Assembly (NCBI GenBank): GCA_021324595.1
Contig: JAJPIV010000104.1
Span: 1-64,000, forward strand
Origin: Actinomycetota bacterium
GTDB taxonomy: Bacteria; Actinomycetota; Actinomycetes; Streptosporangiales; Streptosporangiaceae
DNA length: 64,000 nt
Direction: 5' to 3'
Shown in pieces: positions 24,851 to 31,856 of this stretch (position 1 is the first letter of the stretch; every line of letters begins with the position of its first letter). The notes beneath the pieces are model-generated. The model saw only the letters and a list, made by a program, of their open reading frames with translations. It was not told where the DNA came from and did not search any database. Made by a program: the position numbers and the translations under genes.

Positions 24851-25828
24851 ATGTACGGACAGCGCTGCCCCCGCCGCGCGCCCGCGGCCCGGCGAGCCCG
24901 CGGCGCCGCCGCGGGAGCCGCCTGCCTGGCCGCCACGGCCCTGCTCGCGGCGCCCTCGCTCGCCGCCGCCCCGGCGGCCGGGCAGGCCGCGGTCCTCGCG
25001 GGCGCGGTCGGCCGCGGCGGGCCCGCCGGCCAGCCGCGGGGGATCGCGGCGGCCGCTGCCGCGATCGCGGACGAGCGGACCGGCCGGCGCCTGTGGGCGC
25101 GCCACCCGGACCGCACCCTGCCGGTCGCCAGCCTCACCAAGGTCATGACCGCCTACGTCGTGCTCACGCGCGGGCGCATCGGCAGGTACGTCACCATCAC
25201 CCGCGCCGACGTCCGCTACGTCGGCTGCTGCATCGCGAGCGCCGGGCTGCGCGCGGGGGACGTCCTCACGGCCCGGCAGCTTCTCTACGCGATGCTGCTG
25301 CCCTCCGGCGCCGACGCGGCCCGGGCGCTCGCGGAGGCCTACGGCCCGGGAATCGCGGCATTCGTCGCGAGGATGAACGCCGCGGCCCGCCGGCTGCACC
25401 TGACCGGCACCCGCTTCACGAATTTCGACGGGGTGCCCGCCAGCGACGAGTCGACGCCGGCCAGCCTGCTCCGGCTGGGCGAGGCCGCGATGCGCCTGCC
25501 GTTCTTCCGCGCGGTGGTCCGCGCCCGGTGGCACCGGCTGCGGGCCGGGCGGCTGCACCACGCCTACCTCTGGCGGAACCGGAACCTCCTGCTCGGGCGC
25601 TACCCGGGCGCGATCGGCATCAAGACCGGCTGGACCCCGGCGGCCGGGGAATGCCTGCTCTTCGCGGCCGTGCGGGGGCACCGGGAGCTGATCGGGGTGG
25701 TCCTCGACAGCGCGCCGACCGACTCGGGCGAGACCTTCGTCGCGGCGGCCCGCCTGCTCGACTGGGCGTTCGGGGCCCGCCAGCCCGCCGCCCGGCCGGC
25801 GATGCCAGCGCACGGCCCGCTGGACTGA
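24851..25828 (+). CDS. D-alanyl-D-alanine carboxypeptidase (PBP5-like)
   Basis: A 325-residue exported serine peptidase (S11 family). A signal peptide occupies about 1-45. The SxxK motif is SLTK in VASLTKVMTAYVVL. The second motif is SGA in LLPSGADAARAL, where most PBP5 proteins have SGN. The third motif is KTG in IGIKTGWTPAAG. The enzyme trims the terminal D-Ala of peptidoglycan stem peptides. ATG 24851 is preceded by GGAGGG at ideal distance; an ATG 21 bases upstream lacks one. It ends at the tandem repeat before the two-component genes. Confidence 0.85.
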   Translation: MYGQRCPRRAPAARRARGAAAGAACLAATALLAAPSLAAAPAAGQAAVLAGAVGRGGPAGQPRGIAAAAAAIADERTGRRLWARHPDRTLPVASLTKVMTAYVVLTRGRIGRYVTITRADVRYVGCCIASAGLRAGDVLTARQLLYAMLLPSGADAARALAEAYGPGIAAFVARMNAAARRLHLTGTRFTNFDGVPASDESTPASLLRLGEAAMRLPFFRAVVRARWHRLRAGRLHHAYLWRNRNLLLGRYPGAIGIKTGWTPAAGECLLFAAVRGHRELIGVVLDSAPTDSGETFVAAARLLDWAFGARQPAARPAMPAHGPLD

Positions 25829-25878
25829 CCCCGGCCGCCTGGCTGACCCCGGCCGCCTGGCTGACCCCGGCGCCGGGC
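25825..25878. repeat. 18-bp tandem repeat after the carboxypeptidase gene
   Basis: Two perfect copies (25825-25842, 25843-25860) and one partial copy of CTGACCCCGGCCGCCTGG straddle the stop codon of the carboxypeptidase gene. The stop itself lies in the first unit, so slippage would not alter the protein. Confidence 0.9.
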
Positions 25879-25934: not shown

Positions 25935-26621
25935 ATGACAGCGCAATTTGCCGCCCGGGCACCGGGCGCGGGCGCGAGCGTGCTGGTCGTCGAGGACGAC
26001 CCGGGCATCGCCACGCAGCTCGTGCGCGGCCTGACCCGGGGGGGCTACCAGGTGGACCACGTCACCACCGGCGCGGAGGCCCTCGCCCGCGGCGTGCCCG
26101 ACGTGGTGCTGCTCGACCTCGAGCTGCCCGACGGCGACGGGGTGAACGTCTGCCGGGCGCTGCGCGAGCGCTCGCCCGTCGCGATCATCGTGGTGACCGC
26201 CTACGGCGAGGAGGCCGACCGGGTCAACGCGCTCGACGCCGGCGCCGACGACTACCTCGTCAAGCCGTTCGGCCTGGCCGAGCTCCAGGCCAGGATCCGC
26301 GCCGTTCTCCGGCGGGTAAGGCCGGGTGGCGAGGTCATCCGGCATGGCCCGCTGACCGTGGACCTGCGCACGAAGAAGGTCACCGTGAACGGCCGGGACG
26401 TGGCGCTGACGCCCAAGGAGTTCGACATCCTCGAGTGCCTGGCGCTCGACCCGGGCCGGGTCGTCGGCCGGCAGGAGGTGCTCGAGTCCGCCTGGGACTC
26501 CCACTGGTACGGGCCGACCAAGGTGCTCGACGTGCACGTGGCCGCGCTGCGCCGCAAGCTCGGTGTTCCCGGGCTGATCGAGACCGTCTACGGGCGCGGG
26601 TTCCGGCTCGGCGAGGTCTGA
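25935..26621 (+). CDS. OmpR-family response regulator
   Basis: 228 residues. The receiver domain (about 15-130) has the acidic pair in VLVVEDDPG, the phospho-acceptor Asp in VVLLDLELPDGDG, the Thr in IIVVTAYGEE, and Lys in YLVKPFG. The C-terminal winged-helix domain (about 135-225) ends in KVLDVHVAALRRKLGVPGLI and ETVYGRGFRLGEV. It is the partner of the kinase encoded 1 base downstream. Its probable target is the CTGAA-N6-CTGAA repeat at 28017-28032 in front of the redox operon (inferred from position and site type). Confidence 0.92.
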   Translation: MTAQFAARAPGAGASVLVVEDDPGIATQLVRGLTRGGYQVDHVTTGAEALARGVPDVVLLDLELPDGDGVNVCRALRERSPVAIIVVTAYGEEADRVNALDAGADDYLVKPFGLAELQARIRAVLRRVRPGGEVIRHGPLTVDLRTKKVTVNGRDVALTPKEFDILECLALDPGRVVGRQEVLESAWDSHWYGPTKVLDVHVAALRRKLGVPGLIETVYGRGFRLGEV

Positions 26622-26622
26622 G

Positions 26623-28011
26623 ATGGCGCGCCGGATCGCGCTGGTCGTCACCGCCCTGATCGCGTTGCTGCTCGGCGTCGTGGCCGTCCCCCTCGGCCTG
26701 ATCACCGCCGCCCAGGACCGGCACGACTTCCGTGACGAGACGCTCGCCGCCGCCGCCGCGGTCGCCAGCGTCGCCGAGGAGCACCTGGACGATCACGCAG
26801 GCGGCCCGGGGCTGGCCCGGGCGATCAGCGAGCTCGAGCGCCAGGGCGACCGGGTCGCGGTCTACGACCCCGCCGGGCGCTGGCTGGCGGGGGCCCGGCC
26901 GATCGCGGGGATCTCGCCCGCCCTGATCGGCCGGGCGCTGGCTGCCGCCGGGCCGACGACCTACCCGGTCACCGACCGGCTGGTCGTCGTCGCGCCCGTG
27001 ATCCGGGACGAGACGTCGCTGCGGGTGGGCGTGCTCGTGCTGTCCCGGTCCACCGAGGCGCTCGACCACCGGCTCGTGGCGCTGTGGGCCTGGCTGGCCG
27101 TGGTCGCCGTCGCGGGGCTGGTCGCCGCGGCGCTGATCGCGACCGCGCTGGCGCGCTGGGTGGGCCGGCCGCTCGGCGCCCTGGAGGCCGCCGCCCAGCG
27201 GCTCGGCGACGGCGCCCTCGGCGCCCGCGCCCAGGCCCGGTCCGGCCCGCGGGAGGTGCGCAGGCTGGCCGACAACTTCAACCAGATGGCGGCCCGCCTG
27301 GAGGCGCTGGTAGACGGCCACCAGGCGATGATGGCCGACGTCTCGCACCAGCTGCGCACCCCGCTGGCCGCGCTGCGGCTCCGGCTGGACGTGCTGGCGC
27401 AGGAGTCCCCGGCCGCCATCGCCGAGGAGCTGGCGGGCGCGCAGGAAGAGGTGGCCAGGCTCTCCCGGATGGTCGACGGGCTGCTCACCGTGGCGCGCGC
27501 GGAGAACGCCTCGGCGCCGGCCGTCCCGGTCGCCGTGGAATCGGTGATCCGGGACCGGGTGGCCGCCTGGCGGCCGGCCGCCGACGAGAAGTCGGTCAGC
27601 CTGGACTCGCTGGTGCTGGAGCCGCTCACCGCCAGGATGGGGGATGGCCACCTGGAGCAGGTGCTCGACAACCTGCTCGCCAACGCGGTCGAGGCGGCCA
27701 GGCCCGGCGGCCAGATCCGGGTCAGCGCGGCGCCGGCTGACCGCCGGGTGCGGATCACCGTGGCCGACGACGGGCCCGGCATGAGCCCGCAGCAGCGGCG
27801 CGCGGCATTCCGCAGATTCGTGACGAGCACTCCGGGCGGCACCGGCCTGGGCCTGGCGATCGTGCACCGGCTGGTGACGTCCAACGGCGGGACGGCGCAG
27901 CTGTCCGACACCCCGGGCGGCGGCCTGACGGTGACGATCGACGTGCCCGCGGCCACGCGGGACCGCCTGCCGCGCCGGCCGGGCATGGCAGCCGCCGGCC
28001 GCGATCTTTAG
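26623..28011 (+). CDS. Membrane sensor histidine kinase
   Basis: A 462-residue kinase. The first membrane segment is at about 5-28, an extracytoplasmic sensor part follows to about 145, and a second membrane segment at about 148-175. HAMP comes next, with NFNQMAARLEALVDGHQAMM, then the H-box MADVSHQLRTPLAALRLRL with the phospho-acceptor His. The HATPase contains VLDNLLANAVEAARPGG, VADDGPGMS and GGTGLGLAIVHRL. It follows the response regulator by 1 base. The small periplasmic domain has no recognisable ligand-binding fold. The neighbouring redox operon suggests it monitors the cell envelope or redox state; this is inference. Confidence 0.92.
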   Translation: MARRIALVVTALIALLLGVVAVPLGLITAAQDRHDFRDETLAAAAAVASVAEEHLDDHAGGPGLARAISELERQGDRVAVYDPAGRWLAGARPIAGISPALIGRALAAAGPTTYPVTDRLVVVAPVIRDETSLRVGVLVLSRSTEALDHRLVALWAWLAVVAVAGLVAAALIATALARWVGRPLGALEAAAQRLGDGALGARAQARSGPREVRRLADNFNQMAARLEALVDGHQAMMADVSHQLRTPLAALRLRLDVLAQESPAAIAEELAGAQEEVARLSRMVDGLLTVARAENASAPAVPVAVESVIRDRVAAWRPAADEKSVSLDSLVLEPLTARMGDGHLEQVLDNLLANAVEAARPGGQIRVSAAPADRRVRITVADDGPGMSPQQRRAAFRRFVTSTPGGTGLGLAIVHRLVTSNGGTAQLSDTPGGGLTVTIDVPAATRDRLPRRPGMAAAGRDL

Positions 28012-28016
28012 CGGTT

Positions 28017-28032
28017 CTGAAGGTTTCCTGAA
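28017..28032 (+). promoter_or_regulatory. Probable response-regulator site, CTGAA-N6-CTGAA
   Basis: Two direct CTGAA repeats 11 bases apart (28017-28021 and 28028-28032) lie inside a wider inverted repeat CGGTTC...GAACCG. An 11-base direct repeat is the usual binding pattern of OmpR/PhoB-type regulators. The site is just downstream of the kinase gene and 73 bases before the first gene of the redox operon, so it likely controls that operon. Confidence 0.5.
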
Positions 28033-28104
28033 CCGTGTGCCCATGCTCGGTCGGGCATGCTGGATGACCGGAAGCCCGCACCCCCACCGCGAGGAGGATG
28101 CCGC

Positions 28105-28446
28105 ATGCCATGGCCACGGGAGAGCGCGATCGAGCGCCGTGACGGGCATCTCGCCCGCGCGCGCCGCCTCTCGGTGGGGATCGCCGCGGGCGCCGCGGCC
28201 GCGTCGGTGATGCTCGCCGCCGCGCTGGGCTCCGCGCTTCCCGGGCACTCGGTGACGACCGGTGCCCCGGGTGGCCAGGCAGGCACGGGCAGTCACGGCA
28301 CCGCCGCGGGCCAGGGCGGCTCCGGCCAGGGCGGCGCAGGCCAGGGGACCGGTTCGGGCGGCGGCCAGGGATCGGGCCTCGCTCCCCCGCAGCAGGCGCC
28401 CACCTCGGCCCCGGCGCCGCCGGTCGTCACCTCGGGCGGGTCGTGA
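28105..28446 (+). CDS. Small Gly-rich membrane-anchored protein
   Basis: 113 residues: a charged start, one hydrophobic segment (about 23-45), then a Gly/Gln/Ser-rich, low-complexity exported tail ending in a Pro-rich stretch. No domain recognised. The start ATG 28105 has GAGGAGG 7 bases upstream. Its position as first gene behind the response-regulator site and directly before the ferric-reductase-like gene suggests an accessory envelope subunit or a chaperone-like anchor of the redox complex; this is inference. Confidence 0.7.
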   Translation: MPWPRESAIERRDGHLARARRLSVGIAAGAAAASVMLAAALGSALPGHSVTTGAPGGQAGTGSHGTAAGQGGSGQGGAGQGTGSGGGQGSGLAPPQQAPTSAPAPPVVTSGGS

Positions 28447-28486
28447 CCGAGGCCGGCGATGCCCATCGCCGCCGGGCAGCGCGGCC

Positions 28487-29599
28487 ATGAGCGGGATCGC
28501 GCACGCGGGCCAGCCGCTCGCCGTGCCGGCCGTGGTGGGTCCCAGCATGCTGTGGTACATCACCCGTGCGACCGGGATCGTGGCGCTGGTGCTGCTCACC
28601 GGGACGGTCATGCTCGGGGTGATCGGGACGGCCCGGGCCGCGTCGCAGCGCTGGCCGCGGATCGTGACCGCGAGCCTGCACCAGAACCTCGGCCTGACCG
28701 CCGCCGCGCTGGTCGGCGTCCACGTCGTCACCACGGTCCTGGACCCGTTCGCCCCGATCGGGCTGGTGTCGGCGTTCATACCGTTCAGCTCGCCGTACCG
28801 GCCGCTGTGGCTCAGCCTCGGCACGGTGGCGTTCGACCTGCTGCTGGCCGTGCTGGTGACCAGCCTGCTCCGCGACCGCCTCAGCCACCGCGCCTGGCAG
28901 GCGGTGCACCTGCTGGTCTACGCCTGCTGGCCGGCCGCCCTCTGGCACGGGCTCGGCACCGGCACCGATTCCCGGCTGCCGTGGGTGCTGGCGATCGACC
29001 TGGCCTGCATGGCCGCGGTGGCCTGGGCGGCCTGGTGGCGCCTGTCGCTGGCCGCCAGCCCGGCCGTGCGCGGCACCGGGCTGACCGCGCTGGCCGTGCT
29101 CCCCGTGCTGACCGCCGCCTTCGTGATCGAAGGGCCGCTGCGCCCCGGCTGGGCGCTCCGGGCGGGCACGCCGCCGGCGCTGCTCGGCCGGGCGCCGGCC
29201 ACCGCCGCCGACGGGAGCGGCACCTCCGGCGGCGCCGGCCGCGCCGCGGTGCGGCTGGTGAACGCCCGGTTCACCGGGACGGTCACGGTGACGGCCGGCC
29301 CTGGCGAGCACCGGCGGACGGTCACGATCACCGGCCGCACGGTCGTCGCGCCCGCCGAGCGCATCGCGATCGTCCTGCACGGCGCGCCATCGGGCGGCGG
29401 CGTGTCGCTGACCGACGGGACCGTCCGCATCGGGGGGGCGGGCGCGCCGGCCTGGTCGGGGCCGGTCGTGGCCCTGGCCGGGGCGGACCTGGTGGCCAGC
29501 GTCTCCGGGCCCGGGGGGCGGCGGCAGGCCCGCTTCACGCTGGCGATCAGCGGCAGGTCGGTCACCGGCACGGTCAGCCTGCTGACGGGGGGCGAATAG
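28487..29599 (+). CDS. Ferric-reductase-like transmembrane haem protein
   Basis: A 370-residue protein with about six membrane helices in the first 225 residues and a soluble beta-rich domain at the C-terminus (about 240-370). Two His pairs at the spacing of bis-haem ferric-reductase-like domains are seen: His65 and His79 (HQNLG...VGVHVV) and His141 and His154 (VHLL...LWHGLG), with a further His134. No FAD/NADPH reductase domain is fused, unlike FRE/NOX proteins. The flavin function is probably supplied by the NuoF-like protein encoded 3 bases downstream. ATG 28487 is taken as start. Confidence 0.8.
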   Translation: MSGIAHAGQPLAVPAVVGPSMLWYITRATGIVALVLLTGTVMLGVIGTARAASQRWPRIVTASLHQNLGLTAAALVGVHVVTTVLDPFAPIGLVSAFIPFSSPYRPLWLSLGTVAFDLLLAVLVTSLLRDRLSHRAWQAVHLLVYACWPAALWHGLGTGTDSRLPWVLAIDLACMAAVAWAAWWRLSLAASPAVRGTGLTALAVLPVLTAAFVIEGPLRPGWALRAGTPPALLGRAPATAADGSGTSGGAGRAAVRLVNARFTGTVTVTAGPGEHRRTVTITGRTVVAPAERIAIVLHGAPSGGGVSLTDGTVRIGGAGAPAWSGPVVALAGADLVASVSGPGGRRQARFTLAISGRSVTGTVSLLTGGE

Positions 29600-29602
29600 G
29601 CG

Positions 29603-30964
29603 GTGGCCAGTCACGCGGGCCGGGCCGTGGCCACCGAGGCGGCGCTGGCGGCCGGAGCCGCCGCCCGCCGGGCGGCGCGCGCGGGGATCACGAGCAGGCT
29701 CACCGCCGGATGGCATGAGGCCGGCGGGCCGGCCACCCTGCGCGAGCACCTGCAGCGGTACGGCCCGCTGCCGCAGCCGGGCAGGAACCGCGCGCTGATC
29801 GACGCGGTCACCGCGGCCGGCCTCACCGGCCGCGGCGGCGCGGGCTTCCCCACCGGCATCAAGATGCGGGCCGTGGCCTCGCGCCGCGGCCCCGCCGTCG
29901 TGGTCGCGAACGGCATGGAGAGCGAGCCGGCCAGCGAGAAGGACAAGGCCCTGCTCGCCCGGGCGCCGCACCTGGTCCTCGACGGCGCCGTGCTGGCAGC
30001 CAGCGCGGTGGGCGCCGACTCGGTCCACGTGTGCCTCCCCCGGGGCAGGCGCCGGCTGGCCGAGGCCGTCGAGGACGCCGTGGCCGAGCGGGAGCGGGCG
30101 GGCCTGGACCCGGTCGCGATCGCGGTCCGGGCCCTGCCGCACTGGTACGTCTCCAGCGAGGAGTCCGCGCTCGTGCACTGGCTGAACGGCGGCGAGGCCA
30201 AGCCGACCGCGGTGCCGCCGCGGCCGTACGAGAAGGGCGTCGGCCAGCGCCCCACGCTGGTGGACAACGTGGAGACGCTCGCGCACGTCGCGCTCATCGG
30301 CAGGTACGGGCCCGCCTGGTTCCGCCGGGCGGGCCTGCCCGACGCGCCGGGCACCATGCTCGTCACCGTCGCCGGGGCGGTGCGGGCGCCCGGCGTCTAC
30401 GAGATCGAGGCCGGCACGCGGGTCGGCGACATCCTCGCGATGAGCGGCATGGCGGTGGACGCAGGCCCGGTCCTGGTCGGCGGTTACTTCGGCACCTGGC
30501 ACCACGCCGAGGAGGTGGCCGGCGTCCCGATGGCGCCCGGGCCGCTGCGGGCGATCGGAGCCTCGCCGGGGACGGGCGCGCTGTTCCCCCTGCCCGCCGA
30601 CTGCTGCGGCCTCGCCGAGACCGCCCGGGTGCTCGCCTGGCTGGCCGGCCAGGGAGCGGGCCAGTGCGGGCCGTGCGTGTTCGGCCTGCCCGCGATCGCC
30701 GACGACTTCGCCCAGCTCGCCGCGGGGCGGCCGAAGGGGCCGGTGCTGGACCGCCTGGACCGCCGGCTCGGCCAGGTCGGCGGGCGCGGTGCCTGCCGGC
30801 ACCCGGATGGCGCCGTCCGGCTGGCCAGGTCCGCGCTGTCCGCGTTCGCCGCCGACGTGCGCTCCCACCTGTCGAGGCGGGCGTGCCTGGCCGCCTGGCG
30901 CGGGCAGCCGCGCCAGGGCGTGCTGCCGGTTCCCCGCCCGGCAGGGGACGGGGAGTGGCTGTGA
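29603..30964 (+). CDS. NuoF-like FMN/iron-sulfur NAD(P)H-dehydrogenase subunit
   Basis: 453 residues related to the 51-kDa subunit of complex I. The FMN/NADH-binding loop GRGGAGFPTGIKM is at about 76-88; later ANGMESEPASEKDK, SSEESALVHWLNGGEAK and GQRPTLVDNVETLAHV are family hallmarks, followed by an SLBB-like part. The [4Fe-4S] motif is unusual: Cys355-x2-Cys358 and Cys398 are present, but the first of the usual three clustered cysteines is replaced by Ala352. Cys334 and Cys335 nearby might substitute. It would take electrons from NAD(P)H and pass them to the ferredoxin encoded downstream. GTG start at 29603; its last codons overlap the ferredoxin start. Confidence 0.82.
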   Translation: MASHAGRAVATEAALAAGAAARRAARAGITSRLTAGWHEAGGPATLREHLQRYGPLPQPGRNRALIDAVTAAGLTGRGGAGFPTGIKMRAVASRRGPAVVVANGMESEPASEKDKALLARAPHLVLDGAVLAASAVGADSVHVCLPRGRRRLAEAVEDAVAERERAGLDPVAIAVRALPHWYVSSEESALVHWLNGGEAKPTAVPPRPYEKGVGQRPTLVDNVETLAHVALIGRYGPAWFRRAGLPDAPGTMLVTVAGAVRAPGVYEIEAGTRVGDILAMSGMAVDAGPVLVGGYFGTWHHAEEVAGVPMAPGPLRAIGASPGTGALFPLPADCCGLAETARVLAWLAGQGAGQCGPCVFGLPAIADDFAQLAAGRPKGPVLDRLDRRLGQVGGRGACRHPDGAVRLARSALSAFAADVRSHLSRRACLAAWRGQPRQGVLPVPRPAGDGEWL

Positions 30965-31218
30965 GGAGCCGGCTGGCCGTGAACCCGATCGCCTGCACCG
31001 GGCACGGGCTGTGCGCCGACCTGCTGCCCGAGCTGGTCGGGCTGGACGAATGGGGCTACCCGATGCTCGATGGCGCGCCGGTCCCGGGCGAGCTGATGGC
31101 GCTCGCCCGGCGCGCGGTCCGCCTCTGCCCGACGCTCGCGCTCAGGCTGGAGCCGGCCGCGCCCGGCGCCGGCCGGCGCCGCCCGGCGGCCGGCTCGGAC
31201 TGGAGGGTGATGCCGTGA
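30961..31218 (+). CDS. [3Fe-4S]-type ferredoxin
   Basis: 85 residues with Cys12-x5-Cys18 (ACTGHGLC) and Cys56-Pro (RLCPTLAL), the three-cysteine pattern of small [3Fe-4S] ferredoxins. The first motif retains the common HG between the cysteines. GTG 30961 overlaps the NuoF-like stop (GTGA) and its own stop overlaps the next ATG (TGATG). It should shuttle electrons between the flavoprotein and a membrane haem protein of the operon. Confidence 0.82.
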   Translation: MRSRLAVNPIACTGHGLCADLLPELVGLDEWGYPMLDGAPVPGELMALARRAVRLCPTLALRLEPAAPGAGRRRPAAGSDWRVMP

Positions 31219-31856
31219 TGAACGTGCGGACCATGCCCCGGCACCGCAAGGCCCCGGCCGGCCGGGCCGGCGGGGCCGAGGGAAACGAGCGCCTGACCGC
31301 CATGACCGGGGCCGTGCTGCTCGTCCTCCTGGCCGCCGAGGGCGTCACGATCGCGTTCAAGCACCAGCTCCTCGCCGAGCACTTCTTCATCGGCATGCTG
31401 CTCGTCGGCCCGGTGCTGGTGAAGCTCGGCTCGACCATGTACCGGTTCGCCCGGTACTACACCGGCGCGGCGCCCTACGTGCGCAAGGGGCCGCCCGCGC
31501 CCCTGCTGCGGCTGCTCGGCCCGGTGATCGTCGTGACGTCCGCGGGCGTGATCGGCTCCGGCGTGGCGCTGGCGTTCGTCCGGCCCGGGCCGTCGATCTG
31601 GCTGGTGGCGCACAAGGGCTTCTTCGTGCTCTGGTTCTGCGCGATGACCGTTCACGTGCTGTATTACGCGCCGAGGCTGCCGAGCCTGCTCGGGCGCGGG
31701 TCGAAGGCGCGGTACCGGGCCCGCGCCGCGCTCGCCGGGGCCGGGCGGCGGTGGGCGCTGCTGACCGCATCGCTGGCCGTCGGCCTGATCCTCGCGCTCA
31801 GCACCTACCACCTGGCCGGCGGCTGGGACCGCTACCTGTCCCACGGCGGCGGCTGA
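31218..31856 (+). CDS. Cytochrome b561-like membrane protein
   Basis: 212 residues with four to five hydrophobic helices after a basic N-terminus. Candidate haem ligands are seen in FKHQLLAEHFF near the first helices and in the AHKGFFVLWFCAMTVH segment, where two His are 14 positions apart on one helix. The layout resembles the cytochrome b/b6 or b561 families, but it is divergent. It completes the operon and may be a second membrane electron acceptor. ATG 31218 shares a base with the ferredoxin stop; GGAGG lies upstream. Confidence 0.75.
   Translation: MNVRTMPRHRKAPAGRAGGAEGNERLTAMTGAVLLVLLAAEGVTIAFKHQLLAEHFFIGMLLVGPVLVKLGSTMYRFARYYTGAAPYVRKGPPAPLLRLLGPVIVVTSAGVIGSGVALAFVRPGPSIWLVAHKGFFVLWFCAMTVHVLYYAPRLPSLLGRGSKARYRARAALAGAGRRWALLTASLAVGLILALSTYHLAGGWDRYLSHGGG

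Follow-up and report, generated by a model that had tools for sequence, protein, structure and literature searches.

The 64,000-nucleotide stretch of DNA analysed here (the window) belongs to the 4.09 Mb draft genome of a soil actinobacterium, whose closest named relatives are metagenome-assembled genomes of Streptosporangiaceae/Actinobacteria. Positions 25935-31856 carry seven co-directional genes, all on the + strand, which a sequence-only reading had taken for a regulated path of electrons from NAD(P)H through FMN/Fe-S centres, a ferredoxin and membrane haems to the outside. All seven genes are present, and Pfam profiles confirm the response regulator, the histidine kinase, Ferric_reduct, Complex1_51K/SLBB/NADH_4Fe-4S and Fer4_15; the small Gly-rich protein and the b561-like protein gave no Pfam or NCBIfam match in a profile search of the window proteins. 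We describe this locus and its relatives, and propose the Gly-rich protein as a candidate substrate for flavinylation by ApbE. The features are:

25935..26621, + strand: OmpR/PhoB-family response regulator (RR); Response_reg and Trans_reg_C, 81-92% identity in syntenic loci
26623..28011, + strand: membrane sensor histidine kinase (HK); HAMP, HisKA and HATPase_c, conserved next to the RR
28017..28032, + strand: putative response-regulator box, direct repeat CTGAA-N6-CTGAA; rare in the window, similar sequence in related loci
28105..28446, + strand: small membrane-anchored tail protein (Gly-rich), putative ApbE flavinylation substrate; tail kept in genus orthologues and, upstream of ApbE, in homologous clusters
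28420..28446, + strand: codons of the conserved tail PVVTSGGS-stop; mostly synonymous change, motif rare in the genome
28487..29599, + strand: Fre, ferric-reductase-like (MsrQ-like) bis-haem membrane protein with a C-terminal beta-rich domain; PF01794, invariant His, fold match
29603..30964, + strand: NuoF-like FMN/Fe-S protein, presumed NAD(P)H dehydrogenase; Complex1_51K, SLBB and NADH_4Fe-4S, alignment
30961..31218, + strand: single-cluster ferredoxin (Fd), GTG start at 30961; Fer4_15
31218..31856 (ATG at 31218 or GTG at 31215), + strand: b561-like small membrane protein with three invariant His; alignment, no Pfam family

The start of the small protein at 28105 is preceded by GAGGAGG. Overlapping starts in the last three genes had been read as a sign of fixed stoichiometry. 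The NuoF-like and Fd genes do overlap by 4 bases and the Fd and b561-like genes by 1-4 bases, the only overlaps in the locus, but Fre and the NuoF-like gene lie 3 bases apart, and overlaps are no proof of stoichiometry. The search for the gene set across genomes that had been suggested recovered the full order in two further members of the genus (L033, L045), where the enzymes and regulators are 60-92% identical to those of the window as against 39-45% for the small protein, and part of the order in L019/L066, L065, L022, L023, L024 and L046; the arrangement is therefore not due to chance. The b561-like protein proved separable, as described below.

Four histidines of Fre (65, 79, 141 and 154), forming two pairs, are invariant across 12 homologues and thereby support its assignment as a bis-haem protein. 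Its transmembrane bundle has the haem-bundle fold of the NOX/STEAP/b561 proteins, aligning structurally with cytochrome b561, STEAP4, SpNOX and NOX5 (Z about 12); PF01794 is its sole Pfam match and a fused FAD/NAD-binding domain is absent, so the initial description of a bis-haem protein lacking a flavin domain holds. The four-His, haem-binding bundle is shared with the NADPH oxidase/ferric reductase (FRD) superfamily, from which Fre differs in that a separate NuoF-like protein and ferredoxin would supply the electrons. The beta-rich domain of Fre (29240-29599) is present in some homologues only and is missing from most, including that of the syntenic L045; its resemblance to a CBM2-type chitin/cellulose-binding beta-sandwich (Z about 7, model confidence about 50) was not used as evidence.

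The NuoF-like protein shares an FMN/NAD domain, SLBB and an Fe-S domain with NuoF of complex I, keeps the FMN/NAD-site elements GRGGAGFPTG and ExEP, and matches PF10589 (1.2e-11), but its score of 187.6 bits lies far below the NuoF equivalog cut-off of 558.65 bits. The first of the N3 cysteines of complex I is Ala352 in the window copy (Cys355, 358 and 398 are kept); in ten homologues Cys does not occur at this position, and an additional cysteine, Cys335, is invariant. Because of this loss and gain, ligation of the Fe-S cluster may differ from that in complex I and is perhaps rearranged. In the ferredoxin, the three-Cys pattern CTGHGLC...CP, established for [3Fe-4S] ferredoxins, suggests a protein of that type. 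The fold of Fre and the FMN/NAD site of the NuoF-like protein thus support the originally proposed path, the outward direction of which we infer.

When the NuoF profile was run over 396 genomes, members of this family scored clearly above true NuoF. The NuoF-like protein alone was rejected as a marker of the system, since its relatives sit in other contexts, mostly without a nearby ApbE; these include Fre with a fused NuoF-Fd in large actinobacterial genomes, and NuoF-Fd beside catabolic genes. Loci L115, L121 and L123-L131, in which NuoF-like and ferredoxin genes adjoin catabolic-looking (Rieske-type, amidohydrolase-like) genes, represent another use of the NuoF family.

This core is of a kind already described. 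PF01794 clusters with a NuoF-like protein were reported by Meheust et al. in 2021 among 'MsrQ-like' flavinylation systems (PMC8238504), and the label of an undescribed system cannot be kept for it. Common to the window and that published subset are the PF01794 bis-haem protein, a NuoF-like (PF10589) cytosolic donor, an actinobacterial host, the presence of ApbE (here in paralogous clusters, on contigs C23 and C54) and a predicted flow from NAD(P)H to the outside. The window locus differs in its separate ferredoxin, its two-component genes, its extra b561-like protein and an ApbE that is not adjacent; it also has no FMN_bind protein and instead encodes a domain-less anchored tail protein. The latter, together with its ApbE clade, is the new part.

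The tail protein comprises an Arg-rich N-terminus, one transmembrane helix, a low-complexity linker of Gly, Ala, Ser and Pro that is probably a disordered tether, and the C-terminus PVVTSGGS. Charge is more positive before the helix than after it in 25 of 27 tail proteins, which therefore are predicted to be oriented N-in, C-out. While the linker differs in length and sequence among genus orthologues, the C-terminus PVV[S/T]SGGS-COOH is kept, and pairwise comparison of the last eight codons in five genus members gave 44 synonymous versus 4 nonsynonymous differences. A degenerate DNA pattern for PVV[ST][ST]GG[ST] has three matches in the genome (C23, C46, C86) and none for the reversed control; a stop-anchored tail pattern matched nine of 299 family genomes, six with true tails. 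A literature search, with subscription papers outside its scope, found no earlier description of such proteins. One further anchored small protein, an orphan on C86 (G000:C86; L063:8586-8933), bears GPVVTSGGSGVTATV internally and may undergo the same modification.

The association of tail proteins with ApbE emerges from paralogous loci. Two further copies of the core occur in the window genome, both in the order small protein, ApbE, Fre, NuoF, Fd: the copy on C23 (L031) has a divergent two-component pair, and that on C54 (L032) is followed by another such pair. The third ApbE of the genome, on C88, stands without the core, and no FMN_bind (PF04205) protein was found in this genome. In a bridge locus (L041), RR/HK/tail/Fre face tail/ApbE/Fre/NuoF/Fd/b561. 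Across the phylum, thirteen clusters were examined, most of them with ApbE. The gene upstream of ApbE, or of the core, mostly encodes a small, anchored protein of low complexity, and the C-termini include SVVSGGS, TAVSGGS, TAFSGGS, VVVTGGS, VVATGGS, DASSNAS and VYSSGS. Proteins upstream of ApbE in L098, L101, L102 and L103 end in TTTTxCYxxPSGxxxC, a distinct conserved tip with a Cys pair.

A second sample was selected with a profile of the long ApbE alone from 395 genomes of the class, and consisted of the best 29 loci besides the genome's own copies, 27 of which hold upstream sequence. In 21 of these 27 the upstream open reading frame (ORF) is hydrophobic, of low complexity and ends in [ST].?[GA]S, mostly as [S/T]GGS; one more (L144, already in the first set as L116 and hence not independent) ends in SSNAS, and L149 has an internal TSGGSGVT. 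Of the 6567 stop-to-stop ORFs in these loci, 39 end in the strict pattern [ST][GSR]GS, and 29 of the 39 are among the 120 ORFs that pass filters for hydrophobicity and composition, the set to which the tail proteins belong. Counts in the tail logo derive partly from pattern-selected tails and are descriptive only. FMN_bind is lacking in 12 of 21 cluster genomes, some of them incomplete assemblies, and DUF2271, the other substrate family searched, in the same twelve; all have ApbE. The ApbE tree separates 14 proteins of tail clusters (including the lone C88 copy) from five of FMN_bind clusters, as two groups with 100/100 support. The long-clade proteins match PF02424 above cut-off, with the active-site His and Ser aligned. 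ApbE of L031, L032, L064 and L041 reads ANxxxTA, versus ADALATA in ApbE of FMN_bind operons.

Those classical operons (L134-L139), found in the same genomes, also combine a haem membrane protein, an anchored flavoprotein and ApbE, but their Fre has its own FAD/NAD domain, their ApbE is usually of the short clade, and their folded FMN_bind protein, anchored with a linker, carries [V/I]SGA[T/S]YTS (e.g. VSGATYTS). The tail protein has a similar anchor and linker with the motif-like tip alone, and by analogy may stand in place of the FMN_bind protein, VSGGS resembling VSGAT. ApbE transfers FMN to [S/T]GA[S/T] (PMC8238504, PMC12052999); in ApbE tags seven residues suffice and chain termini work best (PMC12052999). 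Likewise, the synthetic Flavin-tag of Tong et al. (2021; review in PMC12052999) places a short C-terminal [S/T]-G-x-[S/T] on an unstructured end; the tail protein would differ in being natural and membrane-tethered, in having Gly for Ala and no Asp, and in its flavinylation, which is putative.

Because the tip is conserved, linked to ApbE, present in genomes free of FMN_bind and accompanied by a separate ApbE clade, we interpret the tail protein as a putative flavin tag. NAD(P)H would reduce the FMN/Fe-S NuoF-like protein, the ferredoxin would relay electrons to the cytoplasmic side of bis-haem Fre, and Fre would move them across the membrane to the anchored tail protein, whose [S/T]GGS would be flavinylated on the terminal Ser. 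For the window copy, the dedicated ApbE would be encoded elsewhere in the genome; in the paralogues it is a neighbour. From the tethered FMN, electrons could then pass to acceptors in solution or in the cell wall, of which Fe(III) or a similar oxidant is the most plausible; for the methionine-sulfoxide repair partner named earlier as one possible acceptor, nothing in the locus offers support. We consider it probable that the locus encodes such a two-component-regulated electron-export chain ending in a tail protein flavinylated by a dedicated ApbE. Chances are about even for the broader proposal of a class of domain-less flavoproteins widespread in actinobacteria, in which an anchor and a disordered tether would hold a C-terminal [S/T]GGS, flavinylated on its terminal Ser by a co-evolved ApbE clade, as a swinging flavin that carries electrons from the bis-haem protein into the cell wall.

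Several observations weigh against flavinylation of the tail. In the tip [S/T]-G-G-S, Gly stands where [S/T]-G-A-[S/T] has Ala, and the last residue is Ser rather than Thr. Six residues before the acceptor, where D-x-x-[S/T]-G-A-[S/T] has Asp, most tails have Val or His, DASSNAS being the only one with Asp; this Asp is published as having a minor effect. Published changes to other residues at these positions of the motif cut flavinylation by up to about half (PMC12052999). In the long ApbE clade Asn replaces the Asp of ADALATA, here assumed to map to Asp285 of Vc_ApbE, and no signal peptide is evident by eye, so that flavinylation might have to precede export. The window cluster itself has no ApbE, the C86 protein has zero redox neighbours, four of the 27 ApbE-selected loci lack a tail protein, and the phylum-wide set includes deviant ends, with one cluster group bearing the Cys-pair tip and another TTRTFAS. 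These departures of motif and enzyme, the differently ended cluster group, and the near-universal C-terminal place and terminal Ser, which suggest recognition of a chain end, would also suit a chain with the same core in which the tail protein is a flavin-free anchor or docking subunit whose tip binds Fre, ApbE or a secreted partner, the target of the long ApbE being Fre or an unlinked protein. We hold this to be unlikely, though worth serious consideration: L031, L063 and L149 carry the motif internally, so a free carboxylate is dispensable; apart from the tail protein, most clusters have no exported part but Fre, which in many lacks an extracytoplasmic domain; and [S/T]-G-G-S parallels [S/T]-G-A-[S/T].

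Two other explanations appear far less probable. The core fits the published description (PMC8238504) well enough that the locus might be an ordinary MsrQ-like flavinylation system of the NuoF subtype, with its FMN_bind protein encoded elsewhere and the Gly-rich protein incidental; this is rendered very doubtful by the absence of PF04205 from the window genome and 11 other cluster genomes, and by the tie between tail protein and ApbE across the phylum. Slightly more doubtful still is a dedicated complex of all seven proteins, with the b561-like protein as an obligatory member and with a flavin-free, haem-proximal acceptor site built from the Gly-rich protein and the beta domain of Fre. Synteny of the seven genes within the genus speaks for it, but the beta domain, once thought part of the acceptor site, is dispensed with by most Fre homologues, and the b561-like protein occurs with two-component genes only or alone, while Fre, NuoF and Fd occur without it. 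In nominating the Gly-rich protein for that site, the sequence-only reading pointed in the right direction but overlooked both the conserved C-terminus and its connection with ApbE.

A conserved short tail paired with a separate ApbE clade provides a concrete candidate substrate of ApbE. In the survey of Meheust et al., 4% of genomes (670) had ApbE without a known substrate, and less prevalent substrates were said to remain unidentified (PMC8238504). Genes without a predicted signal peptide had been removed (PMC8238504), a filter that could have hidden tail-protein clusters. If the tail is flavinylated, an extracytoplasmic flavoprotein would work without a folded flavin-binding domain, as a natural counterpart to the engineered Flavin-tag, and domain-less flavoproteins would explain a part of the genomes in which apbE was still an orphan in 2021.

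Between the kinase and tail genes lies CTGAAGGTTTCCTGAA, a CTGAA direct repeat with an 11-bp period. It is the only match in the window at up to one mismatch, where 0.61 are expected by chance, and similar sequences, some altered, occupy the corresponding position in nine related loci, among them those with the b561-like gene directly after the kinase. The sequence fits control by a PhoB/OmpR-type RR. Two-component genes recur beside the core, with non-orthologous pairs.

The b561-like protein, which 15 of the 299 genomes searched in the order encode, is a separable module. It accompanies RR-HK without Fre/NuoF in L034 and L035, has neither set of neighbours in L036 and L037, and does not occur in most ApbE-Fre-NuoF-Fd clusters; it is perhaps a quinol or second entry or exit point. 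The family (window 31218-31856; L034-L043) is marked by GPPxxLRxLGP and three invariant His, and is often encoded next to two-component genes. Neither Pfam nor PDB yielded a reliable match to its sequence, and its AlphaFold model (pLDDT 80) matches other folds only at the level of a common bundle (Z up to 9.3, designed bundles first).

Flanking the locus are a gene resembling those for D-Ala-D-Ala carboxypeptidases and, in convergent orientation, one for an aldehyde dehydrogenase, both named by sequence reading. Just before the response-regulator gene, at 25825-25875, is a short tandem repeat of CTGACCCCGGCCGCCTGG units.

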